From Cinnamomum chago (Eukaryota; Streptophyta; Magnoliopsida; Laurales; Lauraceae), in NCBI GenBank assembly GCA_038049695.1, contig CP142457.1:26240501-26304500 (forward strand): DNA of 64,000 nucleotides, given 5' to 3'. Positions within the stretch are counted from its first letter, which is position 1; the number at the start of each line of letters is the position of its first letter. The position numbers were made by a program, and so were the translations under genes. The notes under the pieces are model-generated. The model had not been told where the DNA came from, ran no database searches, and saw only the letters and a program-made list of their open reading frames with translations. Positions 19,499 through 59,455 of the stretch are shown one piece after another.

Positions 19499-20480
19499 AT
19501 CCGGGAGTCCTATTTGCGAGCCGTCAGTTCCTACAAGTCACTCTACCCACGAGCGAAGTGCTCGTGCTGGTTTTTGATTTTTCCGGTGGCCGTTTCCCGT
19601 TTCGGACCCCCGGCGGGCAGTTTTCGAGCCAAGTGTTGGAAAATGACAGGTTTTCGCTCGTAATTCTCTAACCGGGAGTGCTATTTGCGAGCTGTCAGTT
19701 CCTACAAGTCACCCTACCCGCAAGCGAAGTGCTTGTGCCGGTTTTCGATTTTTTCGGGGGTCGTTTCCCGTTCCGAACCCCCGGCGGGCCGTTTTGGAGC
19801 CTAAGTGTTGGAAAATGACAGGTTTTCGCTCGTAATTATCTAACCGGGAGTCCTATTTGCGAGCCGTCAGTTCCTACAAGTCACTTTACCCTTGAGTGAA
19901 GTGCTCGTGCTGGTTTCCAATTTTTCCGGTGGCCGTTTCCCGTTCCGGACCACCGGCGGGCCGTTTTTCGAGCCTAAGTGTTGGAAAATGACAGGTTTTC
20001 GCTCGTAATTCTCTAACCAGGAGTCCTATTTGCGAGCTGTCAGTTCCTACAAGTCACTCTACCCTTGAGCGAAGTGCTCGTGCTGGTTTCCAATTTTTCC
20101 AAAGGCCGTTTCCCTTTCCGGACCCCCGGCGGGCCTTTTTGGAGCCTAAGTGTTGGAAAATCCTATGTTTTTGCTCGTAATTCTCTAACCGGGAGTCCTA
20201 TTTGCGAGCCGTCAGTTCGTACAAGTCACACTACCCTTGAGCGAAGTGCTCGTGCCCGTTTTTTATTTTTCTGGGTGCCGTTTCCCGTTCCGGACCCCCG
20301 GCGGGCTTTTTTGGAGCCTAAGTGTTGGAAAATCCTATGTTTTCGCTCGTAATTCTCTAACCGGGAGTCCCATTTGCGAACCGTTAATTCCGACAAGGCA
20401 CTCTACCCACGAGCGAAGTGCTCGTGCTGGTTTCCGATTTTTACGGGGGCCGTTTCCCGTTCCGGACCCCCGGCGGGCCG
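19499..20480. repeat. ~173-bp minisatellite within the CACTA element
   Basis: Six head-to-tail units of about 172-174 bp begin near 19499, 19672, 19846, 20019, 20190 and 20362, each opening with CCGGGAGTCCTATTTGCGAG or a close variant. Inside each are TCACTCTACCC, CGAAGTGCTCGTG and GACCCCCGGCGGGC. The first unit blends leftward into a more worn copy at about 19310-19490. Units differ by scattered substitutions, so the array is not brand new. Confidence 0.9.
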
Positions 20481-33989: not shown

Positions 33990-36450
33990 GGTTCTAATCA
34001 TCCATCGGTTGATTTGAGACCGGTGGGCCTTGTCATTTTCAGAGATGACGACAACAAATGGGTAAAACCCTTCCAGCTTCGTGGCTGTTTCAGTGCTGAC
34101 TTAGACTGGAAGTCATGAATTGATCATGTCCTATAGATTGGTGGCGCCATTCTGAAGGAAGCTGAGATATTTGATGCGGTCTGCGCTTTTAGGGAAACTG
34201 TGATCTTCTCCGACGAAGCCTTCATGGCCATGTTGGAGTCGTTTTTCCCACAAACCTACATGTTCGTTGTCACGAATGGCGAGATTGGTTTCTCTTTGAA
34301 GGAGTTGAGCGCCATCACTGGGCTGTCTATCCTCGGCAAACTCTATGAAGAGTTAATGCCTATCAACAGTGTCCTGGAGGAATAATCTGAGGAGTTCCGG
34401 CTTCTGTACTTTCAACTTGTTGCCTTCTATGATTTTTTGAAGGAGAAGGAGAGCATGAAAGTTAGGTCCAGCAATTGGAGGAGTTTTAGCTTGTCGTCTC
34501 CCAAATTCTTTGACAGTAGAGAGTCTTCTGACGGCATAACCCAGGAAGCCAGGGCTAAGAATCCGGGTTCGAAGAAGACTTCTGTTATGCGTGAAGATTT
34601 GAAGAACTTCTTCGCGGCCACAAATGTCATTTGTTTTGAGATTGCGCTGCGGAGAGATCTCGCTGTTTACTTCACTTATTGGTTAGGTGAGGTTGTTTTT
34701 GCTGGTGGAGATGGCACGCACATCAGGCCGCATTGTATTTATCCAGCTTGTCAAATGGCGTTTGGAGAGAAGCTTGCTTTATTGCCTGCTCTTTACTCCT
34801 ATTTGTGCACCGAACTGCAGGCTACTGCTTTTCGTGTTCGACTTGGGCTCCCTATGAATACGGTATTTTCAGCCCATGTATTTTATTCGTGGTATGTGTA
34901 CCACTGTCCTGACTTCCACAAGTTGGGTGCTGCACAAGATAATGACCCTTTTATCACTCAATTGGCTAAAGGGACAACCATCTTCGAATCACTTTTGTCT
35001 GCCCGTATGAGGATTCGACGGTATCAGGATGTTGAGATAGGGCAGTCTTCTGTGAAGCTTTCTTCGGATTTGCAGAGGAAGGCTTTTGATTTCGGTGTCT
35101 CTCGCAACTCCACCAGGGCATGGTCGGGAAGACATTAATCCTTGACCAACACAGAGAAGAAGTGGTTTTTCAACATACGTGTTGGCACAATGGTGCACCG
35201 TAGACATCTTTTTGTTGACATCTAGTCGTATGTCCCTTCACGCTTTGTGCTGTAGCTGGGCTTCTATTAAGGCGTTGTTAGAGCGCCTTCGAGTATGGTG
35301 AAGCAGTTTGGAGGCTTGCAGGACGGGAGAAATGCATGGGATTTTTATAGTGTAGAGGACATTACCGCCATGATTTCTTATCCTGAGTTGCCCATTTTGC
35401 GGACTATCGGCTTCATGAAATGGTTCGCGGAGAAATGTTCGGTGTACCAGGGGCTTTTCAAGAAGGAACTTGATGTTAAGCAGTCTTCTGGGATCAGATA
35501 GTGTCCAGCGAGAGGAATTTCTGGCCTTCCTTTCTAGAGAAAAGCATAGGATAGGTTTTTCGATGAAAAGGACGTCATCAAATCTGAAGTTGTCCGAGAA
35601 GTACGTGGTGAGGTCTTAGAACAGCTGGAGCTGGAGGAAGCCGAGATCGACACTTGGATGCACGCAGAGCAGAAACGGGCTTCCGTGAAGTCCACTTACA
35701 AGAGCAGACCGTCCAGCGAGGGGTCGAGTGAGAGGCATGATTTTGACAGCGAGGCACATTCTTTAAGAAAACTATCCCGTAGTGGCAAGAGGAAGATAAG
35801 GCAGCGCCATAATAAGAGACGGCATGAAGACTCTCATGATCTGGAAGTTCTTCTCACCATTGCCAAGGAGGTGTCAGGTAGTGCTGACGAGCCTTCAGAA
35901 AAGAGGAGCCAAAAAGAAAAGACCGTTGGTTAAGGTATGATTCTTCTTCCTTCTCTTTCCGTTTCTTTTCTTTCATGGATACTTTTTTGTTTTGATTTGC
36001 TGCTTTCTTTTTTCTTTTTTTTTATAGTAGGGGATGATGAATTGGTGATGCCTGAGGTTTCGACCGATGAGGCGGTGACGGATCCGATTGCGGCATCTGA
36101 AGAAGAACCAAGGGACCCTAGAGTGGTTCCAGAATCTTCACCCGATATGATTACTTCTTCTTTTTATTTTTTTTGTGCCGTCGTTTGCTGACATATTGCT
36201 TGTTTTCTTGTCAGCTAAGTTGCCACAGGATTCTGACGACTTTGAACCATCCATGGATGCAGCTTTTTGCTGACACAAAAAATGACACTTTACCTCTTCG
36301 TATACTTTCAACATCAAGAAATTATATGAAGTCGTATCCTACCACAAGCAGGCAATGCTACTTCAACCATCAAATCTTGTCAGAATCAAACAAAAACCGC
36401 AATATTCTTCAAAACAGCCAAAAGAAGAGTACACATGAAGTTTCGGGCCA
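33990..36450 (+). pseudogene. Plant mobile domain (PMD, aminotransferase-like) gene, decayed
   Basis: A single frame through exon 1 (about 33990-35930) carries PMD landmarks: ILKEAEIFDAV, then SLKELSAITGLSILGKLYEE near the N-end, VVFAGGDGTHIRPHCIYPAC followed by ALLPALYSYL in the core, and WFFNIRVGTMVHRRHLFVDI later. A charged Lys/Arg tail follows. Putative exons 2 (about 36031-36145, GDDELVMPEVSTDEAV) and 3 (from about 36215) follow short T-rich introns. PMD proteins are host factors in silencing and meristem maintenance (MAIN/MAIL type), and PMD is also carried by some transposons. Roughly four in-frame breaks interrupt exon 1. The downstream end is cut by the LTR array inserted at 36456. 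Confidence 0.72.
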
Positions 36451-36455
36451 TTTTT

Positions 36456-38658
36456 GTTAGGAATTTTGTAGATTGCAATTTGATGGATGCATTATCATTC
36501 GAGCATCATTTGATTTACACACTTGCATTGTTTAAGAAAACTTGAAATCTTATTTTATTCATGCATTTTTTTAAGAGTTGTAAAAGTTTTGATTTATGCA
36601 TGATTTGTTTTCAATCTTGGATGCATTTGTTTTTGGAAAAAGTTTTAGAAATCAAGCTAGCCAATGATTTTTTAAATCTTTCAAAGTGTTTTAGGCTTTT
36701 TATGTTCCATGTTTTTAAAACCCTTAGGATGATTTAAAACATGTTTTTAAGCTTGTTTTATTGGCCCAAAAAGTTCCACAAAGAAAATCTTTGAAAATTG
36801 CAAAACTGGAATTTGGGGCCTCGGCAGTGTCGCCGGTCGACCGGCGCAGAGGTCCCGGTCGACCGGGAACATTGCAGGCAGAAAGTCGCCCTGGCGCCCC
36901 AACGGTCATTTTTCTGTCCGTTGTGTGATCCCAGTCGACCGAGGCCTGTGTGCAGGTCGACCGAGGACTAGCCGTTGGGCACTTTTTGCCATAAATATGA
37001 GTTCTTTCCTTTGCCAAAAGTTGGAAATTTTAAGCCCCTCCTTGAGAGGTTTTGAGGCATATTCAAGGGAAAAGAACTAAGGGATGAAGGGGAGCATTAG
37101 GAAAGCTAAAGCTTGGATTAATGAAGTTAAATCACCAAGTAGGCTCTACTTTCCTTAATCATATGTTTTCATGCTTTGTTTTATTTTTGGTAAATCATTT
37201 GTAGCATGATAAACTATGTTTGTGTTGTGTCCTTAACATGTTTTATGTTTTGAGTTGATTTATTGTTTTTGGATACAACACCATTTGATTCAATCCAATT
37301 AGTACTTGAATTGGTAAATCTAAGTAGATCATGTTAATGAAAGAACCTTTGAAATTATATGTAACATGATTCATATACTTGGTTGAATCTTTGGTTGTTG
37401 TTTTCCATCATAAGAAAATCACTTTCAAAACTATCTTATGTTTTGGACTCAACTTCTTTACAAATCATATGTTTTCATGTTTTGTTTTATCTTAGGTAAA
37501 TCTTTAGTAACATGATAAACTATGATGTGTTGTATCCTTAGCATGTTTTATACTTTGAATAGATCTATTGTTTTGGATGCATCACCATTTGATTCAATCC
37601 AAGTAGTACTTTATCTTTGGTAAATCTAAGTAGATCATGTTAATGAAATATGTAACATGATTCATATACTTGGTTGAATCTTTGGTTGTTGTTATTCCAT
37701 CATAAGAAAATCTCTTTCAAATGTATCTTATGTTTTGGATTCAACATCTTTACAAATCATATGTGTATTATTGTTTTAAAGTTTCACAACTTGCCTTACT
37801 TGATAGGTATATCTCTTTCAAGTTGTATTTATAATTACATATGATTTGTCCCCTCTTTTCAATCAAATCTATTCTTATGTTTTGAGCTTCATTGTTGATT
37901 TGATTGACATCCCTATGCATCACATGTTTAGAACTAATTAATTTCATACAACTTGTGTATCTTTGACATCATTAACAAGTTGTTTCTTTTAACATGTGAA
38001 TTGCATTCTATCCTCAATCATAAATGTTTTATGAGCTAAAAATTTCAAAAGCCTTAGGCATACATTTATGAACTTTCATTTTCAAAATGATTGAGGACCA
38101 CACACACACACTTCATGTACTTTCATCTTTGCATTCATAGTGTGAGTGTGTATTAGTTTTCACTTCCATATCTGCCTAATTAAGATGCATTGTAATGAGC
38201 TTAATTGAATCTCCATCAAGTGTTTATAGACACTAACTTAGTGAGATAACCAACCTTGTGGTTGAAGAGGTTATTGCTTAGCCTATGAAAAGCAGAGTGT
38301 ATAGGTTGATGTTAAGCCTTGAAAAACATCATTGTAAAGGTTATTGCTTAGCCTTGAAAAGCATATTGTAAAGGTTATTGCTTAGCCTATTGGAAAGCAT
38401 AAATAGTGGAAATCCGGTGGGGTGTTGGATCACAAGCCGGTAGTGGATGTAGGCATTGAGGCCGAACCACTATAAATACTTGTGTGATGGTGATTGCTTT
38501 GTGGTGATTCTTTTGTTAGCTTCCGCATCTTGTATGATTAATCATCACATGTGACTAGTTTTTGTTTAGAAATTAATATTTGTTTAAATTGGTCATAATT
38601 GAAGCTCACCCTATTCACCCCCCCCCCCCTCTAGGGTTCGGATCCCCATGGAAATACA
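36456..38658 (+). repeat. LTR1 (outer left)
   Basis: 2,203 bp, TGTTAGG...AATACA. It carries several variants in its first ~215 bases that no other LTR in the array has; the rest matches LTR2-LTR4. It holds a (CA)n at about 38100, three CAAAGGTTATTGC-type repeats at 38265-38395, and a U5 end with the CACCC(n)TCTAGGG motif typical of plant copia LTRs. Confidence 0.95.
36831..36968 (+). repeat. GTCGAC palindromes in the LTR
   Basis: A perfect 16-bp palindrome CGCCGGTCGACCGGCG (36831-36846) and a 14-bp CCCGGTCGACCGGG (36854-36867) are followed by two CGACCGAGG units (about 36933 and 36955). They are repeated in LTR2-LTR5 at about +5,198-bp steps. Similar palindromes occur in the unrelated solo LTR at 8434. 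Confidence 0.9.
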
Positions 38659-38660
38659 AT

Positions 38661-38672
38661 TGGTATCAGAGC
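38661..38672 (+). other. Primer binding site (initiator Met tRNA), copy 1
   Basis: TGGTATCAGAGC, complementary to the 3' end of plant initiator-Met tRNA, two bases after LTR1. This is the standard Ty1/copia minus-strand primer site. Confidence 0.93.
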
Positions 38673-38806
38673 GGGTTACTCCATTTTAGGGCTTAACAAT
38701 CCGGAGTTGATCCTTGCTAGATTAGAACCCTAGTGTTGTGATTTATTGCATATCTTTGTGATGATTTCTACTATGATTGAAATTGGATTTTCCCCTAGCT
38801 TCCTTG

Positions 38807-40880
38807 CACCACTCTAAGACTTTTTCAAGTTATATCTTCAAGAGTTGGTGAGTTCTCAAAGTGATCTCTCAAGGACATCCTTTTCAAGACCTTAGGTGAA
38901 TCTTCATTGGTACACATTTAGACTAACCTTAAGGCCTTGATCCCCCTAGACCAATCTATTCTTTTTAGTTATATCTATTTGTTGGTCATAGTACATTTGC
39001 ATTTTGTTTCTTTAAAGTCACATCTTTTAAAATGCAATGTTTCTTTGTGATCATTTGATTTTGTCTTCATGATCTTTTAAAGTTATATCTCATGGTTTTC
39101 AAAATCCTTTGATTGCTATACTTTCATGATGGATTTGCATTTTGTTCATATAGTTATATCTCTTGTAGTGCTTATCTATTCATGATCAATTGATTATGAT
39201 TACAAATGCTTTCATAGCTAGTTTTTTCATGATCAATTGATATTGGAAAATCATTTGATGTTTGTCATAGTTAGATTTTTTTTTGTAAATCAAATGATTT
39301 GAATCTATTTAAGTTTTCCATTGATTTTCAAGTTATATCTCTTGGTATGGAAAATTTGTGAGTGTCTATTGTTTTACAAATTGAAAATTTTACAATAGTA
39401 CACTTCTTGTTTTTCAAAATCACTTGCTCATAATTCTAAATGATTCTTTCATAAATTGAAGTGATTTGAGAAACTTTGGAAAATGCTCTAAGCTTTATTG
39501 GTTGTATTTATAGAAGCATTTTCCTTGAATTTATTTCCTTGTGCTTAATTATGATTATATCATGTGGAAGGAAATAATTTTTACAATCAACTTGCATCTT
39601 TGCTCATTTAGTTACATTCTTTTTATGCAAATTGATTTTGATGTCTTACATTGCTTGGTTGGATATGGTTTCATTGATTGGCATGGTTGTGCCTATCTTG
39701 GTATATATATTTTCATTAATGCAAATTGATGATTGTTTATGTGCTTTATAGTAAAATCTTGTTTTTGAGCTTTTTAAGTACATATGTGATTTTATGTGCT
39801 AAGTTCATTTGGTTTAAACCTCATATCCATTTTCCATTGCATTGTAAGCTTAGTACATTTGCTAAGAGTGGAGATGTTCCATGATAGATTGATCATTTTA
39901 ACTTCATACCTACTTGTGCTTACATAGTTATATTCTTTATTGATGATATGGTATGAGTTAGATCTTGAGTGTTGATTGATCCTCTCTATGCAAATGTCAA
40001 ATTGTTCTATGTATGGTTGTGATCTTAGTTATATTTATAGAAACCATACTAGAACTAAAATCCATCCTCTATGCTTTCTAGTCATTTTTTTTGGGATGGT
40101 TATGATGTTGATTCATGTATTTTCTCTAAGTGATATCATCCTTATACATGTTTCAACTTCATAGTAGTGATCTTGATCATATGAAACTCTTTGAAATCCA
40201 TTCCTCATATTTCTATGTGTTTGATGCATAACTTAGATGTTGAATTTATATGATTTAGTCACTTTTTAAATTGCATGCATTTCAAAGTTATATCCTTTTG
40301 CATTGCAATTTATCTTGTTCATCACTATGCTCTTTAGTCATATCTTTAAAAGTGATGAATATGCATTTATGATACTTGATGGAATGTTGTGATTGTCACA
40401 TTCTTGCTTTTTATCATGTTATCAAATTCAATTGGTTTCAATTGGTATATTTTTTATTGATTTGATTTCTTGTGAATGTGGTAAACCTTGTGTGCATTGG
40501 ATTGAACTTGATAAGTAATATGATTGTTCCATGTCACACACCATTAGCATCATAATGTTCATGTTGCCACCTCTTTTGCTCATATAGGTATATCTCATGA
40601 CCACCATGTTTATGTGTTCATAATATTGGTTGGTTATTAGTTGAGGTTGGCTTCATGTTTGAATTTCATTTCACTCATCTTGCACTTTAATAGTCATATT
40701 TGTTGATTGAATGAAATGAGTTCAAAATTTTCATAGCATATGTTCTCCATAGTTAGATTATTTGATGCTATGACTTATAAACCCCATTTCTTCATGGATA
40801 GCTCTAATTTGGATTTTTTTAATAGTTATACTTTTAAATCCATTTTAGAGTGACTGATTTAATAGTCATATCCTTAAATC
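38807..40880 (+). repeat. Train of variable-stem hairpins with a conserved AGTTATATCT loop
   Basis: Hairpin spans in copy 1: 38807-38850, 38949-38987, 38997-39037, 39057-39106, 39248-39300 (12-bp stem), 39314-39354, 39417-39467, 39478-39524, 39531-39577, 39592-39630, 39752-39794, 39905-39955, 40011-40049, 40268-40311, 40318-40359 (9-bp stem), 40659-40725, 40731-40773, 40802-40850, 40856-40880. Stems are 6-12 bp and unrelated to each other. Nearly all loops carry AGTTATATCT or a close variant (AGTCATATCT, AGTTACATTC, AGTTAGATTA), always on the + strand; 39417 and 39478 have only weak loop matches. Another lies in the LTR (37786-37826, loop AGGTATATCT). The same hairpins recur at +5,199, +10,399 and +15,597. 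Confidence 0.85.
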
Positions 40881-41092
40881 TCAATTGGTATTCTTTGTTT
40901 TTCCAATTGGTATCCATGATTGCTTTTCTCATTAGACCTAGCTCTCTTTTGGTAATTTGATCATATTGTGCTCTATAGTTAAATGAATCTAATCATTTCC
41001 TTGAAGTTGACCCTCATTTGGTTAAACCATCTTCTTCTTGCACCTAATAGTTAAATCTTTGTCAAAAGTTTGACAAAAGGAGAGAATGGATT

Positions 41093-41653
41093 GAGGGGGA
41101 GTGTAAATCTTCATAGGAAGTATTAGTTTTGATCAAATTGACCCGTGGATTGCCTTTGAGCCCTTAGAGATTAATTCCACACATGATAGCCTGTTATGTA
41201 ATTCACTTTCGATTTCTTTTGTTAACATGTGCTACTAAAGGTATTTTCCTTGTTTCATGTGTGTAGGTACCTTTGCAATTTAATGGCAAAGGGGGAGAAA
41301 GTATTCAAGTTCTCAAAAAGGGTGAAGAGAATGTCCAAGCTTCCTAAGGAGAGTTATGTATGATCTTCTACAAAGGGAGAGAATGCATATCTAGCCAAAG
41401 GGAGAGAAAGGCATGGTCAAAGGGGGAGAGCAAATAGAAGAAGAAAGCTTGGAAGCTAAAGAAGATGCTTGGCTAAAGAAAGAAAGATTGAAGAATGATC
41501 AAGCACCAAGCATCATGAAGAATGAAGAAAAGAGCCGAAGCTAAGAGAAGCATCCAAGAAGATTTCAAGCCTTGTCCAGCTGAGGGGGAGCTGAAGACTA
41601 AGTGTGTTTATTCAGTGGTGAGTGTGTTGCCATCAAATTGCAAAGGGGGAGAT
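41093..41653 (+). other. Multiplied polypurine tracts before LTR2
   Basis: Five G5-containing tracts: GAGGGGGAG (41093), AAAGGGGGAGAAA (41288), CAAAGGGGGAGAG (41418), GAGGGGGAG (41582) and the terminal AAAGGGGGAGA (41642-41652) directly before LTR2. Sireviruses are known for such multiplied tracts. The terminal one primes plus-strand synthesis; the others may be extra primers or structural elements. Confidence 0.85.
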
Positions 41654-43857
41654 TGTTAGGAATTTTGTAGATTGCAATTTGATGGATGCATTATCATTCG
41701 AGCATCATTTGATTTACACACTTGCATTGTTTAAGAAAACTTGAAATCTTATTTTATTCATGCATTGTTTATAAGAGTTGTAAAAGTTTTGATTTATGCA
41801 TGATTTGTTTTCAATCTTGGATGCATTTGTTTTTGGAAAAAGTTTTTGAAATCAAGCTAGCCTATGAGTTTTTAAATCTTTCAAAGTGTTTTAGGCTTTT
41901 TATGTTCCATGTTTTTAAAACCCTTAGGATGATTTAAAACATGTTTTTAAGCTTGTTTTATTGGCCCAAAAAGTTCCACAAAGAAAATCTTTGAAAATTG
42001 CAAAACTGGAATTTGGGGCCTCGGCAGTGTCGCCGGTCGACCGGCGCAGAGGTCCCGGTCGACCGGGAACATTGCAGGCAGAAAGTCGCCCTGGCGCCCC
42101 AACGGTCATTTTTCTGTCCGTTGTGTGATCCCAGTCGACCGAGGCCTGTGTGCAGGTCGACCGAGGACTAGCCGTTGGGCACTTTTTGCCATAAATATGA
42201 GTTCTTTCCTTTGCCAAAAGTTGGAAATTTTAAGCCCCTCCTTGAGAGGTTTTGAGGCATATTCAAGGGAAAAGAACTAAGGGATGAAGGGGAGCATTAG
42301 GAAAGCTAAAGCTTGGATTAATGAAGTTAAATCACCAAGTAGGCTCTACTTTCCTTAATCATATGTTTTCATGCTTTGTTTTATTTTTGGTAAATCATTT
42401 GTAGCATGATAAACTATGTTTGTGTTGTGTCCTTAACATGTTTTATGTTTTGAGTTGATTTATTGTTTTTGGATACAACACCATTTGATTCAATCCAATT
42501 AGTACTTGAATTGGTAAATCTAAGTAGATCATGTTAATGAAAGAACCTTTGAAATTATATGTAACATGATTCATATACTTGGTTGAATCTTTGGTTGTTG
42601 TTTTCCATCATAAGAAAATCACTTTCAAAACTATCTTATGTTTTGGACTCAACTTCTTTACAAATCATATGTTTTCATGTTTTGTTTTATCTTAGGTAAA
42701 TCTTTAGTAACATGATAAACTATGATGTGTTGTATCCTTAGCATGTTTTATACTTTGAATAGATCTATTGTTTTGGATGCATCACCATTTGATTCAATCC
42801 AAGTAGTACTTTATCTTTGGTAAATCTAAGTAGATCATGTTAATGAAATATGTAACATGATTCATATACTTGGTTGAATCTTTGGTTGTTGTTATTCCAT
42901 CATAAGAAAATCTCTTTCAAATGTATCTTATGTTTTGGATTCAACATCTTTACAAATCATATGTGTATTATTGTTTTAAAGTTTCACAACTTGCCTTACT
43001 TGATAGGTATATCTCTTTCAAGTTGTATTTATAATTACATATGATTTGTCCCCTCTTTTCAATCAAATCTATTCTTATGTTTTGAGCTTCATTGTTGATT
43101 TGATTGACATCCCTATGCATCACATGTTTAGAACTAATTAATTTCATACAACTTGTGTATCTTTGACATCATTAACAAGTTGTTTCTTTTAACATGTGAA
43201 TTGCATTCTATCCTCAATCATAAATGTTTTATGAGCTAAAAATTTCAAAAGCCTTAGGCATACATTTATGAACTTTCATTTTCAAAATGATTGAGGACCA
43301 CACACACACACTTCATGTACTTTCATCTTTGCATTCATAGTGTGAGTGTGTATTAGTTTTCACTTCCATATCTGCCTAATTAAGATGCATTGTAATGAGC
43401 TTAATTGAATCTCCATCAAGTGTTTATAGACACTAACTTAGTGAGATAACCAACCTTGTGGTTGAAGAGGTTATTGCTTAGCCTATGAAAAGCAGAGTGT
43501 ATAGGTTGATGTTAAGCCTTGAAAAACATCATTGTAAAGGTTATTGCTTAGCCTTGAAAAGCATATTGTAAAGGTTATTGCTTAGCCTATTGGAAAGCAT
43601 AAATAGTGGAAATCCGGTGGGGTGTTGGATCACAAGCCGGTAGTGGATGTAGGCATTGAGGCCGAACCACTATAAATACTTGTGTGATGGTGATTGCTTT
43701 GTGGTGATTCTTTTGTTAGCTTCCGCATCTTGTATGATTAATCATCACATGTGACTAGTTTTTGTTTAGAAATTAATATTTGTTTAAATTGGTCATAATT
43801 GAAGCTCACCCTATTCACCCCCCCCCCCTCTAGGGTTCGGATCCCCATGGAAATACA
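41654..43857 (+). repeat. LTR2 (junction LTR)
   Basis: 2,204 bp. The first part agrees with LTR5 and the last part with LTR1, the pattern of a recombinant LTR. Shares its state with LTR3 and LTR4. Confidence 0.95.
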
Positions 43858-46852
43858 ATTGGTATCAGAGCGGGTTACTCCATTTTAGGGCTTAACAATC
43901 CGGAGTTGATCCTTGCTAGATTAGAACCCTAGTGTTGTGATTTATTGCATATCTTTGTGATGATTTCTACTATGATTGAAATTGGATTTTCCCCTAGCTT
44001 CCTTGCACCACTCTAAGACTTTTTCAAGTTATATCTTCAAGAGTTGGTGAGTTCTCAAAGTGATCTCTCAAGGACATCCTTTTCAAGACCTTAGGTGAAT
44101 CTTCATTGGTACACATTTAGACTAACCTTAAGGCCTTGATCCCCCTAGACCAATCTATTCTTTTTAGTTATATCTATTTGTTGGTCATAGTACATTTGCA
44201 TTTTGTTTCTTTAAAGTCACATATTTTAAAATGCAATGTTTCTTTGTGATCATTTGATTTTGTCTTCATGATCTTTTAAAGTTATATCTCATGGTTTTCA
44301 AAATCCTTTGATTGCTATACTTTCATGATGGATTTGCATTTTGTTCATATAGTTATATCTCTTGTAGTGCTTATCTATTCATGATCAATTGATTATGATT
44401 ACAAATGCTTTCATAGCTAGTTTTTTCATGATCAATTGATATTGGAAAATCATTTGATGTTTGTCATAGTTAGATTTTTTTTTGTAAATCAAATGATTTG
44501 AATCTATTTAAGTTTTCCATTGATTTTCAAGTTATATCTCTTGGTATGGAAAATTTGTGAGTGTCTATTGTTTTACAAATTGAAAATTTTACAATAGTAC
44601 ACTTCTTGTTTTTCAAAATCACTTGCTCATAATTCTAAATGATTCTTTCATAAATTGAAGTGATTTGAGAAACTTTGGAAAATGCTCTAAGCTTTATTGG
44701 TTGTATTTATAGAAGCATTTTCCTTGAATTTATTTCCTTGTGCTTAATTATGATTATATCATGTGGAAGGAAATAATTTTTACAATCAACTTGCATCTTT
44801 GCTCATTTAGTTACATTCTTTTTATGCAAATTGATTTTGATGTCTTACATTGCTTGGTTGGATATGGTTTCATTGATTGGCATGGTTGTGCCTATCTTGG
44901 TATATATATTTTCATTAATGCAAATTGATGATTGTTTATGTGCTTTATAGTAAAATCTTGTTTTTGAGCTTTTTAAGTACATATGTGATTTTATGTGCTA
45001 AGTTCATTTGGTTTAAACCTCATATCCATTTTCCATTGCATTGTAAGCTTAGTACATTTGCTAAGAGTGGAGATGTTCCATGATAGATTGATCATTTTAA
45101 CTTCATACCTACTTGTGCTTACATAGTTATATTCTTTATTGATGATATGGTATGAGTTAGATCTTGAGTGTTGATTGATCCTCTCTATGCAAATGTCAAA
45201 TTGTTCTATGTATGGTTGTGATCTTAGTTATATTTATAGAAACCATACTAGAACTAAAATCCATCCTCTATGCTTTCTAGTCATTTTTTTTGGGATGGTT
45301 ATGATGTTGATTCATGTATTTTCTCTAAGTGATATCATCCTTATACATGTTTCAACTTCATAGTAGTGATCTTGATCATATGAAACTCTTTGAAATCCAT
45401 TCCTCATATTTCTATGTGTTTGATGCATAACTTAGATGTTGAATTTATATGATTTAGTCACTTTTTAAATTGCATGCATTTCAAAGTTATATCCTTTTGC
45501 ATTGCAATTTATCTTGTTCATCACTATGCTCTTTAGTCATATCTTTAAAAGTGATGAATATGCATTTATGATACTTGATGGAATGTTGTGATTGTCACAT
45601 TCTTGCTTTTTATCATGTTATCAAATTCAATTGGTTTCAATTGGTATATTTTTTATTGATTTGATTTCTTGTGAATGTGGTAAACCTTGTGTGCATTGGA
45701 TTGAACTTGATAAGTAATATGATTGTTCCATGTCACACACCATTAGCATCATAATGTTCATGTTGCCACCTCTTTTGCTCATATAGGTATATCTCATGAC
45801 CACCATGTTTATGTGTTCATAATATTGGTTGGTTATTAGTTGAGGTTGGCTTCATGTTTGAATTTCATTTCACTCATCTTGCACTTTAATAGTCATATTT
45901 GTTGATTGAATGAAATGAGTTCAAAATTTTCATAGCATATGTTCTCCATAGTTAGATTATTTGATGCTATGACTTATAAACCCCATTTCTTCATGGATAG
46001 CTCTAATTTGGATTTTTTTAATAGTTATACTTTTAAATCCATTTTAGAGTGACTGATTTAATAGTCATATCCTTAAATCTCAATTGGTATTCTTTGTTTT
46101 TCCAATTGGTATCCATGATTGCTTTTCTCATTAGACCTAGCTCTCTTTTGGTAATTTGATCATATTGTGCTCTATAGTTAAATGAATCTAATCATTTCCT
46201 TGAAGTTGACCCTCATTTGGTTAAACCATCTTCTTCTTGCACCTAATAGTTAAATCTTTGTCAAAAGTTTGACAAAAGGAGAGAATGGATTGAGGGGGAG
46301 TGTAAATCTTCATAGGAAGTATTAGTTTTGATCAAATTGACCCGTGGATTGCCTTTGAGCCCTTAGAGATTAATTCCACACATGATAGCCTGTTATGTAA
46401 TTCACTTTCGATTTCTTTTGTTAACATGTGCTACTAAAGGTATTTTCCTTGTTTCATGTGTGTAGGTACCTTTGCAATTTAATGGCAAAGGGGGAGAAAG
46501 TATTCAAGTTCTCAAAAAGGGTGAAGAGAATGTCCAAGCTTCCTAAGGAGAGTTATGTATGATCTTCTACAAAGGGAGAGAATGCATATCTAGCCAAAGG
46601 GAGAGAAAGGCATGGTCAAAGGGGGAGAGCAAATAGAAGAAGAAAGCTTGGAAGCTAAAGAAGATGCTTGGCTAAAGAAAGAAAGATTGAAGAATGATCA
46701 AGCACCAAGCATCATGAAGAATGAAGAAAAGAGCCGAAGCTAAGAGAAGCATCCAAGAAGATTTCAAGCCTTGTCCAGCTGAGGGGGAGCTGAAGACTAA
46801 GTGTGTTTATTCAGTGGTGAGTGTGTTGCCATCAAATTGCAAAGGGGGAGAT
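43858..46852 (+). mobile_element. Internal domain 2 (non-coding, 2,995 bp)
   Basis: Same length as the other three internal domains, and almost identical to them; at least one private substitution is visible near 44223. Primer site TGGTATCAGAGC at 43860-43871, terminal polypurine tract at 46841-46851. Confidence 0.93.
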
Positions 46853-49057
46853 TGTTAGGAATTTTGTAGATTGCAATTTGATGGATGCATTATCATTCGA
46901 GCATCATTTGATTTACACACTTGCATTGTTTAAGAAAACTTGAAATCTTATTTTATTCATGCATTGTTTATAAGAGTTGTAAAAGTTTTGATTTATGCAT
47001 GATTTGTTTTCAATCTTGGATGCATTTGTTTTTGGAAAAAGTTTTTGAAATCAAGCTAGCCTATGAGTTTTTAAATCTTTCAAAGTGTTTTAGGCTTTTT
47101 ATGTTCCATGTTTTTAAAACCCTTAGGATGATTTAAAACATGTTTTTAAGCTTGTTTTATTGGCCCAAAAAGTTCCACAAAGAAAATCTTTGAAAATTGC
47201 AAAACTGGAATTTGGGGCCTCGGCAGTGTCGCCGGTCGACCGGCGCAGAGGTCCCGGTCGACCGGGAACATTGCAGGCAGAAAGTCGCCCTGGCGCCCCA
47301 ACGGTCATTTTTCTGTCCGTTGTGTGATCCCAGTCGACCGAGGCCTGTGTGCAGGTCGACCGAGGACTAGCCGTTGGGCACTTTTTGCCATAAATATGAG
47401 TTCTTTCCTTTGCCAAAAGTTGGAAATTTTAAGCCCCTCCTTGAGAGGTTTTGAGGCATATTCAAGGGAAAAGAACTAAGGGATGAAGGGGAGCATTAGG
47501 AAAGCTAAAGCTTGGATTAATGAAGTTAAATCACCAAGTAGGCTCTACTTTCCTTAATCATATGTTTTCATGCTTTGTTTTATTTTTGGTAAATCATTTG
47601 TAGCATGATAAACTATGTTTGTGTTGTGTCCTTAACATGTTTTATGTTTTGAGTTGATTTATTGTTTTTGGATACAACACCATTTGATTCAATCCAATTA
47701 GTACTTGAATTGGTAAATCTAAGTAGATCATGTTAATGAAAGAACCTTTGAAATTATATGTAACATGATTCATATACTTGGTTGAATCTTTGGTTGTTGT
47801 TTTCCATCATAAGAAAATCACTTTCAAAACTATCTTATGTTTTGGACTCAACTTCTTTACAAATCATATGTTTTCATGTTTTGTTTTATCTTAGGTAAAT
47901 CTTTAGTAACATGATAAACTATGATGTGTTGTATCCTTAGCATGTTTTATACTTTGAATAGATCTATTGTTTTGGATGCATCACCATTTGATTCAATCCA
48001 AGTAGTACTTTATCTTTGGTAAATCTAAGTAGATCATGTTAATGAAATATGTAACATGATTCATATACTTGGTTGAATCTTTGGTTGTTGTTATTCCATC
48101 ATAAGAAAATCTCTTTCAAATGTATCTTATGTTTTGGATTCAACATCTTTACAAATCATATGTGTATTATTGTTTTAAAGTTTCACAACTTGCCTTACTT
48201 GATAGGTATATCTCTTTCAAGTTGTATTTATAATTACATATGATTTGTCCCCTCTTTTCAATCAAATCTATTCTTATGTTTTGAGCTTCATTGTTGATTT
48301 GATTGACATCCCTATGCATCACATGTTTAGAACTAATTAATTTCATACAACTTGTGTATCTTTGACATCATTAACAAGTTGTTTCTTTTAACATGTGAAT
48401 TGCATTCTATCCTCAATCATAAATGTTTTATGAGCTAAAAATTTCAAAAGCCTTAGGCATACATTTATGAACTTTCATTTTCAAAATGATTGAGGACCAC
48501 ACACACACACTTCATGTACTTTCATCTTTGCATTCATAGTGTGAGTGTGTATTAGTTTTCACTTCCATATCTGCCTAATTAAGATGCATTGTAATGAGCT
48601 TAATTGAATCTCCATCAAGTGTTTATAGACACTAACTTAGTGAGATAACCAACCTTGTGGTTGAAGAGGTTATTGCTTAGCCTATGAAAAGCAGAGTGTA
48701 TAGGTTGATGTTAAGCCTTGAAAAACATCATTGTAAAGGTTATTGCTTAGCCTTGAAAAGCATATTGTAAAGGTTATTGCTTAGCCTATTGGAAAGCATA
48801 AATAGTGGAAATCCGGTGGGGTGTTGGATCACAAGCCGGTAGTGGATGTAGGCATTGAGGCCGAACCACTATAAATACTTGTGTGATGGTGATTGCTTTG
48901 TGGTGATTCTTTTGTTAGCTTCCGCATCTTGTATGATTAATCATCACATGTGACTAGTTTTTGTTTAGAAATTAATATTTGTTTAAATTGGTCATAATTG
49001 AAGCTCACCCTATTCACCCCCCCCCCCCTCTAGGGTTCGGATCCCCATGGAAATACA
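46853..49057 (+). repeat. LTR3 (junction LTR)
   Basis: 2,205 bp. Hybrid state as in LTR2; differs mainly in the length of the poly-C run near its end. Confidence 0.95.
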
Positions 49058-52052
49058 ATTGGTATCAGAGCGGTTTACTCCATTTTAGGGCTTAACAATC
49101 CGGAGTTGATCCTTGCTAGATTAGAACCCTAGTGTTGTGATTTATTGCATATCTTTGTGATGATTTCTACTATGATTGAAATTGGATTTTCCCCTAGCTT
49201 CCTTGCACCACTCTAAGACTTTTTCAAGTTATATCTTCAAGAGTTGGTGAGTTCTCAAAGTGATCTCTCAAGGACATCCTTTTCAAGACCTTAGGTGAAT
49301 CTTCATTGGTACACATTTAGACTAACCTTAAGGCCTTGATCCCCCTAGACCAATCTATTCTTTTTAGTTATATCTATTTGTTGGTCATAGTACATTTGCA
49401 TTTTGTTTCTTTAAAGTCACATCTTTTAAAATGCAATGTTTCTTTGTGATCATTTGATTTTGTCTTCATGATCTTTTAAAGTTATATCTCATGGTTTTCA
49501 AAATCCTTTGATTGCTATACTTTCATGATGGATTTGCATTTTGTTCATATAGTTATATCTCTTGTAGTGCTTATCTATTCATGATCAATTGATTATGATT
49601 ACAAATGCTTTCATAGCTAGTTTTTTCATGATCAATTGATATTGGAAAATCATTTGATGTTTGTCATAGTTAGATTTTTTTTTGTAAATCAAATGATTTG
49701 AATCTATTTAAGTTTTCCATTGATTTTCAAGTTATATCTCTTGGTATGGAAAATTTGTGAGTGTCTATTGTTTTACAAATTGAAAATTTTACAATAGTAC
49801 ACTTCTTGTTTTTCAAAATCACTTGCTCATAATTCTAAATGATTCTTTCATAAATTGAAGTGATTTGAGAAACTTTGGAAAATGCTCTAAGCTTTATTGG
49901 TTGTATTTATAGAAGCATTTTCCTTGAATTTATTTCCTTGTGCTTAATTATGATTATATCATGTGGAAGGAAATAATTTTTACAATCAACTTGCATCTTT
50001 GCTCATTTAGTTACATTCTTTTTATGCAAATTGATTTTGATGTCTTACATTGCTTGGTTGGATATGGTTTCATTGATTGGCATGGTTGTGCCTATCTTGG
50101 TATATATATTTTCATTAATGCAAATTGATGATTGTTTATGTGCTTTATAGTAAAATCTTGTTTTTGAGCTTTTTAAGTACATATGTGATTTTATGTGCTA
50201 AGTTCATTTGGTTTAAACCTCATATCCATTTTCCATTGCATTGTAAGCTTAGTACATTTGCTAAGAGTGGAGATGTTCCATGATAGATTGATCATTTTAA
50301 CTTCATACCTACTTGTGCTTACATAGTTATATTCTTTATTGATGATATGGTATGAGTTAGATCTTGAGTGTTGATTGATCCTCTCTATGCAAATGTCAAA
50401 TTGTTCTATGTATGGTTGTGATCTTAGTTATATTTATAGAAACCATACTAGAACTAAAATCCATCCTCTATGCTTTCTAGTCATTTTTTTTGGGATGGTT
50501 ATGATGTTGATTCATGTATTTTCTCTAAGTGATATCATCCTTATACATGTTTCAACTTCATAGTAGTGATCTTGATCATATGAAACTCTTTGAAATCCAT
50601 TCCTCATATTTCTATGTGTTTGATGCATAACTTAGATGTTGAATTTATATGATTTAGTCACTTTTTAAATTGCATGCATTTCAAAGTTATATCCTTTTGC
50701 ATTGCAATTTATCTTGTTCATCACTATGCTCTTTAGTCATATCTTTAAAAGTGATGAATATGCATTTATGATACTTGATGGAATGTTGTGATTGTCACAT
50801 TCTTGCTTTTTATCATGTTATCAAATTCAATTGGTTTCAATTGGTATATTTTTTATTGATTTGATTTCTTGTGAATGTGGTAAACCTTGTGTGCATTGGA
50901 TTGAACTTGATAAGTAATATGATTGTTCCATGTCACACACCATTAGCATCATAATGTTCATGTTGCCACCTCTTTTGCTCATATAGGTATATCTCATGAC
51001 CACCATGTTTATGTGTTCATAATATTGGTTGGTTATTAGTTGAGGTTGGCTTCATGTTTGAATTTCATTTCACTCATCTTGCACTTTAATAGTCATATTT
51101 GTTGATTGAATGAAATGAGTTCAAAATTTTCATAGCATATGTTCTCCATAGTTAGATTATTTGATGCTATGACTTATAAACCCCATTTCTTCATGGATAG
51201 CTCTAATTTGGATTTTTTTAATAGTTATACTTTTAAATCCATTTTAGAGTGACTGATTTAATAGTCATATCCTTAAATCTCAATTGGTATTCTTTGTTTT
51301 TCCAATTGGTATCCATGATTGCTTTTCTCATTAGACCTAGCTCTCTTTTGGTAATTTGATCATATTGTGCTCTATAGTTAAATGAATCTAATCATTTCCT
51401 TGAAGTTGACCCTCATTTGGTTAAACCATCTTCTTCTTGCACCTAATAGTTAAATCTTTGTCAAAAGTTTGACAAAAGGAGAGAATGGATTGAGGGGGAG
51501 TGTAAATCTTCATAGGAAGTATTAGTTTTGATCAAATTGACCCGTGGATTGCCTTTGAGCCCTTAGAGATTAATTCCACACATGATAGCCTGTTATGTAA
51601 TTCACTTTCGATTTCTTTTGTTAACATGTGCTACTAAAGGTATTTTCCTTGTTTCATGTGTGTAGGTACCTTTGCAATTTAATGGCAAAGGGGGAGAAAG
51701 TATTCAAGTTCTCAAAAAGGGTGAAGAGAATGTCCAAGCTTCCTAAGGAGAGTTATGTATGATCTTCTACAAAGGGAGAGAATGCATATCTAGCCAAAGG
51801 GAGAGAAAGGCATGGTCAAAGGGGGAGAGCAAATAGAAGAAGAAAGCTTGGAAGCTAAAGAAGATGCTTGGCTAAAGAAAGAAAGATTGAAGAATGATCA
51901 AGCACCAAGCATCATGAAGAATGAAGAAAAGAGCCGAAGCTAAGAGAAGCATCCAAGAAGATTTCAAGCCTTGTCCAGCTGAGGGGGAGCTGAAGACTAA
52001 GTGTGTTTATTCAGTGGTGAGTGTGTTGCCATCAAATTGCAAAGGGGGAGAT
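49058..52052 (+). mobile_element. Internal domain 3 (non-coding, 2,995 bp)
   Basis: Primer site at 49060-49071, polypurine tract at 52041-52051. One private substitution is visible just after the primer site (about 49074). Confidence 0.93.
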
Positions 52053-54255
52053 TGTTAGGAATTTTGTAGATTGCAATTTGATGGATGCATTATCATTCGA
52101 GCATCATTTGATTTACACACTTGCATTGTTTAAGAAAACTTGAAATCTTATTTTATTCATGCATTGTTTATAAGAGTTGTAAAAGTTTTGATTTATGCAT
52201 GATTTGTTTTCAATCTTGGATGCATTTGTTTTTGGAAAAAGTTTTTGAAATCAAGCTAGCCTATGAGTTTTTAAATCTTTCAAAGTGTTTTAGGCTTTTT
52301 ATGTTCCATGTTTTTAAAACCCTTAGGATGATTTAAAACATGTTTTTAAGCTTGTTTTATTGGCCCAAAAAGTTCCACAAAGAAAATCTTTGAAAATTGC
52401 AAAACTGGAATTTGGGGCCTCGGCAGTGTCGCCGGTCGACCGGCGCAGAGGTCCCGGTCGACCGGGAACATTGCAGGCAGAAAGTCGCCCTGGCGCCCCA
52501 ACGGTCATTTTTCTGTCCGTTGTGTGATCCCAGTCGACCGAGGCCTGTGTGCAGGTCGACCGAGGACTAGCCGTTGGGCACTTTTTGCCATAAATATGAG
52601 TTCTTTCCTTTGCCAAAAGTTGGAAATTTTAAGCCCCTCCTTGAGAGGTTTTGAGGCATATTCAAGGGAAAAGAACTAAGGGATGAAGGGGAGCATTAGG
52701 AAAGCTAAAGCTTGGATTAATGAAGTTAAATCACCAAGTAGGCTCTACTTTCCTTAATCATATGTTTTCATGCTTTGTTTTATTTTTGGTAAATCATTTG
52801 TAGCATGATAAACTATGTTTGTGTTGTGTCCTTAACATGTTTTATGTTTTGAGTTGATTTATTGTTTTTGGATACAACACCATTTGATTCAATCCAATTA
52901 GTACTTGAATTGGTAAATCTAAGTAGATCATGTTAATGAAAGAACCTTTGAAATTATATGTAACATGATTCATATACTTGGTTGAATCTTTGGTTGTTGT
53001 TTTCCATCATAAGAAAATCACTTTCAAAACTATCTTATGTTTTGGACTCAACTTCTTTACAAATCATATGTTTTCATGTTTTGTTTTATCTTAGGTAAAT
53101 CTTTAGTAACATGATAAACTATGATGTGTTGTATCCTTAGCATGTTTTATACTTTGAATAGATCTATTGTTTTGGATGCATCACCATTTGATTCAATCCA
53201 AGTAGTACTTTATCTTTGGTAAATCTAAGTAGATCATGTTAATGAAATATGTAACATGATTCATATACTTGGTTGAATCTTTGGTTGTTGTTATTCCATC
53301 ATAAGAAAATCTCTTTCAAATGTATCTTATGTTTTGGATTCAACATCTTTACAAATCATATGTGTATTATTGTTTTAAAGTTTCACAACTTGCCTTACTT
53401 GATAGGTATATCTCTTTCAAGTTGTATTTATAATTACATATGATTTGTCCCCTCTTTTCAATCAAATCTATTCTTATGTTTTGAGCTTCATTGTTGATTT
53501 GATTGACATCCCTATGCATCACATGTTTAGAACTAATTAATTTCATACAACTTGTGTATCTTTGACATCATTAACAAGTTGTTTCTTTTAACATGTGAAT
53601 TGCATTCTATCCTCAATCATAAATGTTTTATGAGCTGAAAATTTCAAAAGCCTTAGGCATACATTTATGAACTTTCATTTTCAAAATGATTGAGGACCAC
53701 ACACACACACTTCATGTACTTTCATCTTTGCATTCATAGTGTGAGTGTGTATTAGTTTTCACTTCCATATCTGCCTAATTAAGATGCATTGTAATGAGCT
53801 TAATTGAATCTCCATCAAGTGTTTATAGACACTAACTTAGTGAGATAACCAACCTTGTGGTTGAAGAGGTTATTGCTTAGCCTATGAAAAGCAGAGTGTA
53901 TAGGTTGATGTTAAGCCTTGAAAAACATCATTGTAAAGGTTATTGCTTAGCCTTGAAAAGCATATTGTAAAGGTTATTGCTTAGCCTATTGGAAAGCATA
54001 AATAGTGGAAATCCGGTGGGGTGTTGGATCACAAGCCGGTAGTGGATGTAGGCATTGAGGCCGAACCACTATAAATACTTGTGTGATGGTGATTGCTTTG
54101 TGGTGATTCTTTTGTTAGCTTCCGCATCTTGTATGATTAATCATCACATGTGACTAGTTTTTGTTTAGAAATTAATATTTGTTTAAATTGGTCATAATTG
54201 AAGCTCACCCTATTCACCCCCCCCCCTCTAGGGTTCGGATCCCCATGGAAATACA
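52053..54255 (+). repeat. LTR4 (junction LTR)
   Basis: 2,203 bp. Hybrid state as in LTR2 and LTR3, with one private substitution near 53637. Confidence 0.95.
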
Positions 54256-57250
54256 ATTGGTATCAGAGCGGGTTACTCCATTTTAGGGCTTAACAATCCG
54301 GAGTTGATCCTTGCTAGATTAGAACCCTAGTGTTGTGATTTATTGCATATCTTTGTGATGATTTCTACTATGATTGAAATTGGATTTTCCCCTAGCTTCC
54401 TTGCACCACTCTAAGACTTTTTCAAGTTATATCTTCAAGAGTTGGTGAGTTCTCAAAGTGATCTCTCAAGGACATCCTTTTCAAGACCTTAGGTGAATCT
54501 TCATTGGTACACATTTAGACTAACCTTAAGGCCTTGATCCCCCTAGACCAATCTATTCTTTTTAGTTATATCTATTTGTTGGTCATAGTACATTTGCATT
54601 TTGTTTCTTTAAAGTCACATCTTTTAAAATGCAATGTTTCTTTGTGATCATTTGATTTTGTCTTCATGATCTTTTAAAGTTATATCTCATGGTTTTCAAA
54701 ATCCTTTGATTGCTATACTTTCATGATGGATTTGCATTTTGTTCATATAGTTATATCTCTTGTAGTGCTTATCTATTCATGATCAATTGATTATGATTAC
54801 AAATGCTTTCATAGCTAGTTTTTTCATGATCAATTGATATTGGAAAATCATTTGATGTTTGTCATAGTTAGATTTTTTTTTGTAAATCAAATGATTTGAA
54901 TCTATTTAAGTTTTCCATTGATTTTCAAGTTATATCTCTTGGTATGGAAAATTTGTGAGTGTCTATTGTTTTACAAATTGAAAATTTTACAATAGTACAC
55001 TTCTTGTTTTTCAAAATCACTTGCTCATAATTCTAAATGATTCTTTCATAAATTGAAGTGATTTGAGAAACTTTGGAAAATGCTCTAAGCTTTATTGGTT
55101 GTATTTATAGAAGCATTTTCCTTGAATTTATTTCCTTGTGCTTAATTATGATTATATCATGTGGAAGGAAATAATTTTTACAATCAACTTGCATCTTTGC
55201 TCATTTAGTTACATTCTTTTTATGCAAATTGATTTTGATGTCTTACATTGCTTGGTTGGATATGGTTTCATTGATTGGCATGGTTGTGCCTATCTTGGTA
55301 TATATATTTTCATTAATGCAAATTGATGATTGTTTATGTGCTTTATAGTAAAATCTTGTTTTTGAGCTTTTTAAGTACATATGTGATTTTATGTGCTAAG
55401 TTCATTTGGTTTAAACCTCATATCCATTTTCCATTGCATTGTAAGCTTAGTACATTTGCTAAGAGTGGAGATGTTCCATGATAGATTGATCATTTTAACT
55501 TCATACCTACTTGTGCTTACATAGTTATATTCTTTATTGATGATATGGTATGAGTTAGATCTTGAGTGTTGATTGATCCTCTCTATGCAAATGTCAAATT
55601 GTTCTATGTATGGTTGTGATCTTAGTTATATTTATAGAAACCATACTAGAACTAAAATCCATCCTCTATGCTTTCTAGTCATTTTTTTTGGGATGGTTAT
55701 GATGTTGATTCATGTATTTTCTCTAAGTGATATCATCCTTATACATGTTTCAACTTCATAGTAGTGATCTTGATCATATGAAACTCTTTGAAATCCATTC
55801 CTCATATTTCTATGTGTTTGATGCATAACTTAGATGTTGAATTTATATGATTTAGTCACTTTTTAAATTGCATGCATTTCAAAGTTATATCCTTTTGCAT
55901 TGCAATTTATCTTGTTCATCACTATGCTCTTTAGTCATATCTTTAAAAGTGATGAATATGCATTTATGATACTTGATGGAATGTTGTGATTGTCACATTC
56001 TTGCTTTTTATCATGTTATCAAATTCAATTGGTTTCAATTGGTATATTTTTTATTGATTTGATTTCTTGTGAATGTGGTAAACCTTGTGTGCATTGGATT
56101 GAACTTGATAAGTAATATGATTGTTCCATGTCACACACCATTAGCATCATAATGTTCATGTTGCCACCTCTTTTGCTCATATAGGTATATCTCATGACCA
56201 CCATGTTTATGTGTTCATAATATTGGTTGGTTATTAGTTGAGGTTGGCTTCATGTTTGAATTTCATTTCACTCATCTTGCACTTTAATAGTCATATTTGT
56301 TGATTGAATGAAATGAGTTCAAAATTTTCATAGCATATGTTCTCCATAGTTAGATTATTTGATGCTATGACTTATAAACCCCATTTCTTCATGGATAGCT
56401 CTAATTTGGATTTTTTTAATAGTTATACTTTTAAATCCATTTTAGAGTGACTGATTTAATAGTCATATCCTTAAATCTCAATTGGTATTCTTTGTTTTTC
56501 CAATTGGTATCCATGATTGCTTTTCTCATTAGACCTAGCTCTCTTTTGGTAATTTGATCATATTGTGCTCTATAGTTAAATGAATCTAATCATTTCCTTG
56601 AAGTTGACCCTCATTTGGTTAAACCATCTTCTTCTTGCACCTAATAGTTAAATCTTTGTCAAAAGTTTGACAAAAGGAGAGAATGGATTGAGGGGGAGTG
56701 TAAATCTTCATAGGAAGTATTAGTTTTGATCAAATTGACCCGTGGATTGCCTTTGAGCCCTTAGAGATTAATTCCACACATGATAGCCTGTTATGTAATT
56801 CACTTTCGATTTCTTTTGTTAACATGTGCTACTAAAGGTATTTTCCTTGTTTCATGTGTGTAGGTACCTTTGCAATTTAATGGCAAAGGGGGAGAAAGTA
56901 TTCAAGTTCTCAAAAAGGGTGAAGAGAATGTCCAAGCTTCCTAAGGAGAGTTATGTATGATCTTCTACAAAGGGAGAGAATGCATATCTAGCCAAAGGGA
57001 GAGAAAGGCATGGTCAAAGGGGGAGAGCAAATAGAAGAAGAAAGCTTGGAAGCTAAAGAAGATGCTTGGCTAAAGAAAGAAAGATTGAAGAATGATCAAG
57101 CACCAAGCATCATGAAGAATGAAGAAAAGAGCCGAAGCTAAGAGAAGCATCCAAGAAGATTTCAAGCCTTGTCCAGCTGAGGGGGAGCTGAAGACTAAGT
57201 GTGTTTATTCAGTGGTGAGTGTGTTGCCATCAAATTGCAAAGGGGGAGAT
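54256..57250 (+). mobile_element. Internal domain 4 (non-coding, 2,995 bp)
   Basis: Primer site at 54258-54269, polypurine tract at 57239-57249. Carries the same hairpin train as the other copies, offset +15,597 from copy 1. Confidence 0.93.
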
Positions 57251-59450: not shown

Positions 59451-59455
59451 ATTTT

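Follow-up and report, generated by a model that had tools for sequence, protein, structure and literature searches.

What features can selection act on in a retroelement that carries no genes, and by which of them might its RNA be recognised? To our knowledge, the way in which gene-less plant LTR RNAs are chosen for packaging is an open question. The locus described here lies in the window (the whole stretch of DNA that was analysed, 64,000 nucleotides of Cinnamomum chago), which is situated on G000:C7 of a genome searched over 1.06 Gb. The first-pass annotation of this DNA had proposed that a non-coding retroelement interior is built as a train of hairpins with different stems and one constant loop, and had read this as selection on RNA structure with a loop recognised by its sequence.

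Self-BLAST showed a tandem array of one LTR retroelement from 36455 to 59450, consisting of five LTRs and four interiors, all on the + strand. LTR 1 (TGTTAGG...TACA, 36455..38658) is followed by LTRs 2-5 at 41653-43858, 46852-49058, 52052-54256 and 57250-59451, as placed by self-BLAST, the LTR alignment and, for LTR 1, its ends; the LTRs are about 2.2 kb long and 99.2-99.8% identical to LTR 1. The non-coding interior has 2993 bases in all four array copies, and copies 2-4 (43859-46851, 49059-52051 and 54257-57249) show 0 or 1 difference each when aligned with copy 1 (38660..41652). A 5-bp target-site duplication, ATTTT (36450..36454 on the left, 59451-59455 on the right), flanks the whole array. 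Letters private to LTR 1 were observed in its 5' part and those private to LTR 5 in its 3' part, the inner LTRs having neither set; together with the single target-site duplication this would be expected if one insertion had expanded at its site through unequal LTR exchange. Close to the LTR end, the polyC tract (38619-38640) varies in length among the five LTRs.

No stop-to-stop frame of at least 150 aa is present within 36454-59451. The sequence contains a primer binding site, TGGTATCAGAGC (38661..38672, +), which we take to be of the initiator tRNA-Met type. An inverted repeat, CCATCAAATTGC / GCAATTTGATGG (41630..41685, +), surrounds the last polypurine tract (41641-41652) together with the start of the LTR; it is present also in the relative F57 described below, and six polypurine-like copies occur from 41074 on. 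In Kalendar's usage of 2004, LARDs are reportedly large retrotransposon derivatives, and those of the Triticeae are placed in gypsy. The available part of PMC7215508 describes LARD elements with long LTRs, a conserved interior free of gag and pol, many copies and 'well-conserved RNA secondary structures'. The window's element resembles them in its long LTRs, the lack of gag and pol, its many copies and its conserved non-coding interior; however, it has Sirevirus-like (Copia) marks, and a hairpin train with a common loop motif is not stated for LARDs in that part of PMC7215508. In the LTR, palindromic CCGGTCGACCGG-type boxes (36833..36968, +), seen as direct repeats, are like the Sirevirus RM boxes in the portion of PMC2829016 at hand. 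The marks of Sireviruses given in that portion are the PBS junction, repeated polypurine tracts, an inverted repeat round the last of them, CGG-CCG palindromes in the LTR and a polyC tract near the LTR end. All five are found in the window's element, which differs from Sireviruses in being without gag or pol; the hairpin train is not among the motifs named in the same portion of PMC2829016. The non-coding signals are Sirevirus-like, which speaks against gypsy, and there is no reverse transcriptase by which to classify the element, so that it can be called LARD-like only. The element is a non-coding, non-autonomous, Sirevirus-like and LARD-like LTR retroelement.

All five inverted repeats named by the first-pass annotation are located where it had placed them, and the shuffled controls it had called for upheld the excess. 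At a minimum arm length of 7 and with loops of 8-60, 36 inverted repeats were counted in the interior, compared with a mean of 14.2 and a largest value of 23 when 40 dinucleotide shuffles were made; at a minimum arm length of 9 the count was 10 versus 1.5 (largest 4, again in 40 shuffles). The LTR is also rich in inverted repeats (30 versus 10.2 in shuffles, largest 20), and of the other DNA, at 1-36000, 6 of 18 blocks stood above every one of their 12 shuffles, and one did so strongly. The strongest excess among the tested blocks was observed at 18001-20000, where inverted repeats with arms of 8 or more numbered 25 versus 4.2 in shuffles. The folding check turned out negative: in 100-base windows the local folding energy of the interior is no better than in the LTR, with similar values on the two strands, the mean z of the thermodynamic scan being -0.94 (+) and -1.09 (-) in the interior and -0.73 and -0.90 in the LTR. 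As to the number of hairpins, which had been given as about 18, 16 motif-bearing ones could be counted in 38949-40880, and other motif sites, for example 38828, 39956 and 40586, have no convincing stem.

No Rfam family reached its gathering score anywhere in the window, and on 36454-41652 there were two matches below the cut-off (MIR395, E 0.23; PK-BYV, E 0.56). Two candidate functions were tried and rejected. For kissing loops, the self-pairing energy of the 16 loops equalled that of shuffled loops (P 0.54); for clusters of pre-miRNAs, an idea raised by the kept stems and varying loops, stems of 6-12 bp looked too short by established knowledge. Plasmid records, and viral contigs searched with the exact junction pattern, returned nothing.

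The hairpins were followed in copies of the family and in more distant elements. A genome search gave at least 42 matches from 40 scored of 7409 candidates, the full or long ones at 89-100%, and four of them are the array itself (L001-L004). Thirty loci were taken and 23 interiors aligned (the window's and 22 others, mean identity 93.4%); L011 and, from a second array, three of the four copies (L023-L025) were excluded. Three diverged relatives, F57 (L057 with L061), F48 (L048 with L062) and L067, have interiors with 73-87% identity to that of the window in BLAST pieces.

The individual hairpins all lie on the + strand. H1 (38949..38987) has the loop motif AGTTATATCT, which is missing from this loop in F57, F48 and the L045 element and reads AGTTAAATCT in L067. 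H2 (38997..39037, loop AGTCACATCT) has one broken pair each in F57, L045 and L067, while the loops of H3 (39057..39106) and H6 (39314..39354) carry AGTTATATCT again. No motif is present in H4 (ATCAATTGAT / ATCAATTGAT, 39185..39241), where 0 changes were found in 230 family cells and one broken pair in each diverged relative, and no clear one in H7 (AAATCACTT / AAGTGATTT, 39417..39467). The stem of H5 (39248..39300, loop AGTTAGATTT) has 12 bp, and those of H8 (39478..39524, loop GGTTGTATTT) and H9 (39531..39577, loop GATTATATCA) have 10 bp. In F57 and F48 there is no good homologue of H10 (39904..39956, loop AGTTATATTC) and none of H17 (40810..40842, loop AGTTATACTT). Further along follow H11 (40011..40049, loop AGTTATATTT), H12 (40114..40150, loop AGTGATATCA), H13 (40267..40312, loop AGTTATATCC), with pairs broken in F57, F48 and L067, H14 (40318..40359, loop AGTCATATCT), H15 (40664..40718, loop AGTCATATTT) and H16 (40731..40773, loop AGTTAGATTA). 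H18 (40856..40880, loop AGTCATATCC) is weak, 12 of its 161 cells being broken.

That the loops share a motif in one orientation was borne out. Within 3 mismatches, 12 of the 15 loops with arms of at least 8 have the motif on the + strand and 4 on the - strand, and rotations of the sequence, the chance control for motifs falling in loops, averaged 4.3 versus the 12 seen (P 0.005). Over the whole interior, AGTTATATCT occurs at 11 sites on + and 0 on - with at most one mismatch and at 21 and 6 sites, respectively, with at most two; 10 of the 42 sites with at most 3 mismatches are within tight stems, versus 1.2 expected. The loops are mostly 19-39 nt long. The claimed constancy of the loop holds in part: its letters vary among the copies, with 98 variant alleles at 21 motif sites versus 75 expected from the remaining interior, but a loose consensus, approximately AGTYANATYT and preceded by a pyrimidine-rich stretch, is kept. 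A matrix made in each case from the remaining loops puts the cost of the variants at 1.4 to 1.8 units, versus 2.6 to 3.1 under mutation of the same spectrum. The z value of the loop consensus was 5.3, of which a part is built in, since 40 control sets (best matches to random 10-mers) averaged 1.4 with a maximum of 3.8; with the motif register shifted by at least 10 bases z fell between -1.5 and 0.7. The 'constant loop' is better read as a loose loop consensus with strict stems.

The strictness of the stems was measured in the 23 copies. In the 16 motif hairpins 1.65% of the stem cells, 6.5% of the loop cells and 4.0% of the remaining cells are variable (1.69, 6.6 and 4.0% with the window row omitted), the stems being about four times less variable than the loops, and when the stem mask was shifted circularly within 38940-40890, a variability as low as that observed was reached in 0 of 1949 shifts. 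Among chance inverted repeats whose arms of 8 or more bases lie far apart (42, loops of 61-1000), the variability is 3.0%, compared with 1.66% in the 15 near ones (P 0.011). Between shared and singleton variants, stems compared with loops, no significant difference could be detected (P 0.12).

Conserved-stem hairpins extend into the LTR, with exceptions. In 21 rows, the hairpin ATCATGTTA / TAACATGAT (37634..37661, +) has a variability of 0.3% in the stem and 4.3% in the loop; the corresponding values are 1.2 and 7.8% for ACAACTTG / CAAGTTGT (37786..37826, +), with the loop motif AGGTATATCT at 37805-37814, and 0.0 and 5.5% for TCAATCAAATC / GATTTGATTGA (37859..37907, +). For ACAACTTGT / ACAAGTTGT (37948..37983, +), whose arms have similar counterparts in other LTR families, they are 3.7 and 11.9%. 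The stem of TCATAAATGT / ACATTTATGA (38018..38071, +) is not below its loop (1.7 and 1.0%), and the hairpin at 37328-37370, with a stem variability of 11%, is an exception. Taken together over two overlapping stretches, LTR stems with arms of at least 8 are 2.65% and 2.34% variable versus 5.7-5.9% overall (P 0.011 and 0.0013), significance being missed in the first stretch when the minimum arm length is set at 7 (P 0.056) or 9 (P 0.064).

The diverged relatives were compared by hairpin-wise alignment, the whole-interior alignment being poor in the middle. In F57, F48 and L067, respectively, substitutions were found at 18/265, 12/250 and 13/224 stem positions and at 70/399, 64/368 and 60/347 loop positions. 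A summed hairpin folding energy as low as the observed one was reached in 65, 8 and 2 of 1000 random-mutation runs. Thus the fold has been kept beyond chance in two of the three relatives, F48 and L067, and not in F57, the individual hairpins falling mostly short of P 0.05. Retention of the motif gave P 0.025 in F57 (11 sites), 0.20 in F48 (12) and 0.010 in L067 (9), with misplaced sites left out (39926 in all three, 40864 in F48 and 40586 in L067).

One of these relatives brings the train together with a gag gene. The F57 interior matches eight places at 83-85% only from base 177-200 onward, and one of the eight, L067, has a 255-codon open frame with a zinc knuckle, then a 116-codon frame and then the hairpin train. 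The zinc knuckle was found by Pfam zf-CCHC with E 0.0019 at 18.7 bits, below the curated 20.8, and a coiled-coil-like stretch is visible by eye in the 255-codon frame. In this gag part (L067:1-1110) the reading frame shifts between the 255- and 116-codon pieces. The gag stretch occurs at at least 40 places at 91% or more and the train at at least 40 places at 88% or more; among the matches listed they abut at 4 places, exactly at C1:67.83, C12:31.57 and C5:55.16 Mb and with one base between at C12:43.42 Mb. By eye, none of the 150 RVT_2 places scored of 16771 candidates lay near the gag or train places listed. A protein search with this gag gave 10 matches, none named as gag; four of the 10 (61-83% identity) come from records that bear the names Streptomyces plicatus or S. 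clavifer, and these are probably plant contamination. Since the train is common to the gag-bearing family, the window's element is probably a gene-less relative or descendant of that family which has retained the train.

In an element that lacks genes, only cis-acting features are open to selection, and a gag-bearing family has the same train beside gag; both make packaging or recognition in trans more plausible. The explanation that we prefer, and to which we give about an even chance, is that the hairpin train consists of selected cis-acting RNA recognition sites, the likeliest reader being the Gag of the gag-bearing family and the outcome packaging in trans; the Gag step is what we infer. 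Against this explanation stand the scarcity of compensated pairs and the frequent broken ones, the ordinary folding energy, the fold of F57, which is not kept beyond chance, the motif retention in F48, the loss of the H1 motif in three relatives, and the LTR exceptions. The element RNA would present a train of short hairpins from its LTR-derived 5' leader through the interior, and these hairpins may act in the RNA as repeated recognition sites. Their reader would most likely be the zinc-knuckle Gag of the related gag-bearing family, and many weak, similar sites could jointly lead to the packaging of the element RNA in trans. Packaging or Gag recognition is perhaps the role of the train, as a candidate. 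A distributed code, argued by analogy, is a more doubtful proposal: the Gag of the partner family, which has the same train, might cooperatively read about 20 weak hairpins that are distributed through leader and interior and have a degenerate loop in common, and the window's family might be a pure RNA parasite that has dropped all its genes while retaining the code.

The RNA structures could have been selected for some other role in cis, such as stability, export, translation, avoidance of silencing or a contribution to reverse transcription, without any reading of the loops that is specific to Gag. Stem conservation across the LTR leader and the interior suits any structural role, and so do stems that are stricter than loops; a loop consensus in one orientation, however, would be unnecessary for pure stability. 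We regard such a role as a real, though rather unlikely, possibility.

It is less probable still, in our judgement, that what is conserved in the arms is their sequence or an inverted repeat of the DNA (as binding sites or cruciforms), the pairing in RNA being incidental. This idea draws on the pattern of changes, few of which are compensated, the arms being conserved letter by letter. Variable stems held together by compensation had been expected, but in 4374 cells (23 hairpins, 23 copies) 2 were compensated, 44 half-changed and 106 broken, and strict covariation among the relatives was likewise scarce: in the automatic count, pairs with both letters changed and still paired numbered 1, 0 and 0 versus 13, 8 and 6 broken in F57, F48 and L067, respectively. 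The broken pairs are below the permuted number in F57 and F48 and equal to it in L067. The sole automatic double change is C-G to T-A in H7 of F57. By eye there are further compensations, dependent on gap placement, in H9, where a gap-free alignment gives T-A to C-G in F57, F48 and L067 (scored broken in F57 by the automatic pair count), and in H16, where two family copies have the outer T-A changed to A-T. The ordinary folding energy and the inverted repeats in the LTR part upstream of the likely transcription start would also fit a role in DNA. Against it, the arms differ among the hairpins, so that no single DNA-binding protein fits, the motif is strand-specific, and some changes are G-U replacements (two in H12 of L067, and in H14 of F57).

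A mutational process, template switching at quasi-palindromes, might also make and repair inverted repeats with selection absent, and the excess of these repeats in the LTR and interior, mild elsewhere, is what it would give. The two LTRs of one copy differ by only about 0.33%, so the copies are young, and within copies the differences struck 3 of 984 stem positions (0.30%) and 25 of 7387 other positions (0.34%), a comparison of few events, with only 3 in stems and 11 of the 22 copies usable, the other 11 alignments being too short. Between the same copies the stems differ by 0.5% and the other positions by 3.1%. Since changes within copies strike stems and the rest alike, the deficit in stems arose in the transposing lineages, which points to purifying selection there and not to mutation bias. 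The kept loop consensus would also be left unexplained by such a process, and we consider it very improbable. Chance in AT-rich DNA combined with reader bias, which could appeal to the 14 such repeats that shuffled DNA yields and to the ordinary folding energy, is hardly credible, being opposed by the inverted-repeat excess, the motif-loop association, the loop consensus, the distant-repeat comparison and the stem conservation, the conservation results counting against it unless the alignment misleads. The original reading of selection on RNA structure with a sequence-read loop is thus supported by the stem and loop-consensus tests, and its compensation part is poorly supported.

The closest known elements are the LARDs, and the closest parallel to our preferred reading is found in the dispersed packaging signals of RNA viruses. 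Dispersed degenerate packaging signals, with reported contact to the coat or core protein, are described for RNA viruses and HBV in the accessible parts of PMC7612645, PMC7793301 and PMC3593212. The likeness, as far as those parts go, consists of several stem-loops with a degenerate loop motif, and in HBV of a short common motif read by the core protein; the difference is that here a plant LTR element is concerned, whose protein reader is putative, with loops mostly of the length given above. In titles and abstract openings of the literature on Sirevirus, LARD, RNA structure of non-autonomous LTR elements and dispersed signals, a body with few subscription journals, this design was not found. 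If the preferred reading is true, the idea of dispersed packaging signals would be extended from RNA viruses to LTR retroelements. The candidate packaging signal is visible by conservation alone, repeated many times and placed beside gag in a relative, which makes the question of how such RNAs are chosen directly testable.

The array itself also has parallels. Cassandra (PMC7215508) and Wukong (PMC4528315) are, in the available parts of these sources, short TRIM elements with tandem arrays in which LTRs share head-to-tail interiors. Several LTRs share interiors in the window as well, but here the array has a 5.2-kb unit and is enclosed by one target-site duplication. The window's family forms another tandem array, with four interiors at 5273-base spacing, at G000:C3:46273810-46292657 (L022-L025). 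The same genome has coding Copia tandem arrays at C5:21564560-21636143 and C7:25056752-25101037, where RVT_2 places follow each other every 5.43-5.46 kb or so in rows of 14 (C5) and 9 (C7), with open frames of more than 1300 codons. Behind the window's array, at 59840-60939, a related family is represented by a diverged LTR, which matches the LTR of the array at 75-82% and has no PBS behind it. This diverged LTR harbours an insert (60553-60700, about 148 bases) whose ends are of the CACTACAAGAAAA type and which is presumably like a small CACTA element.
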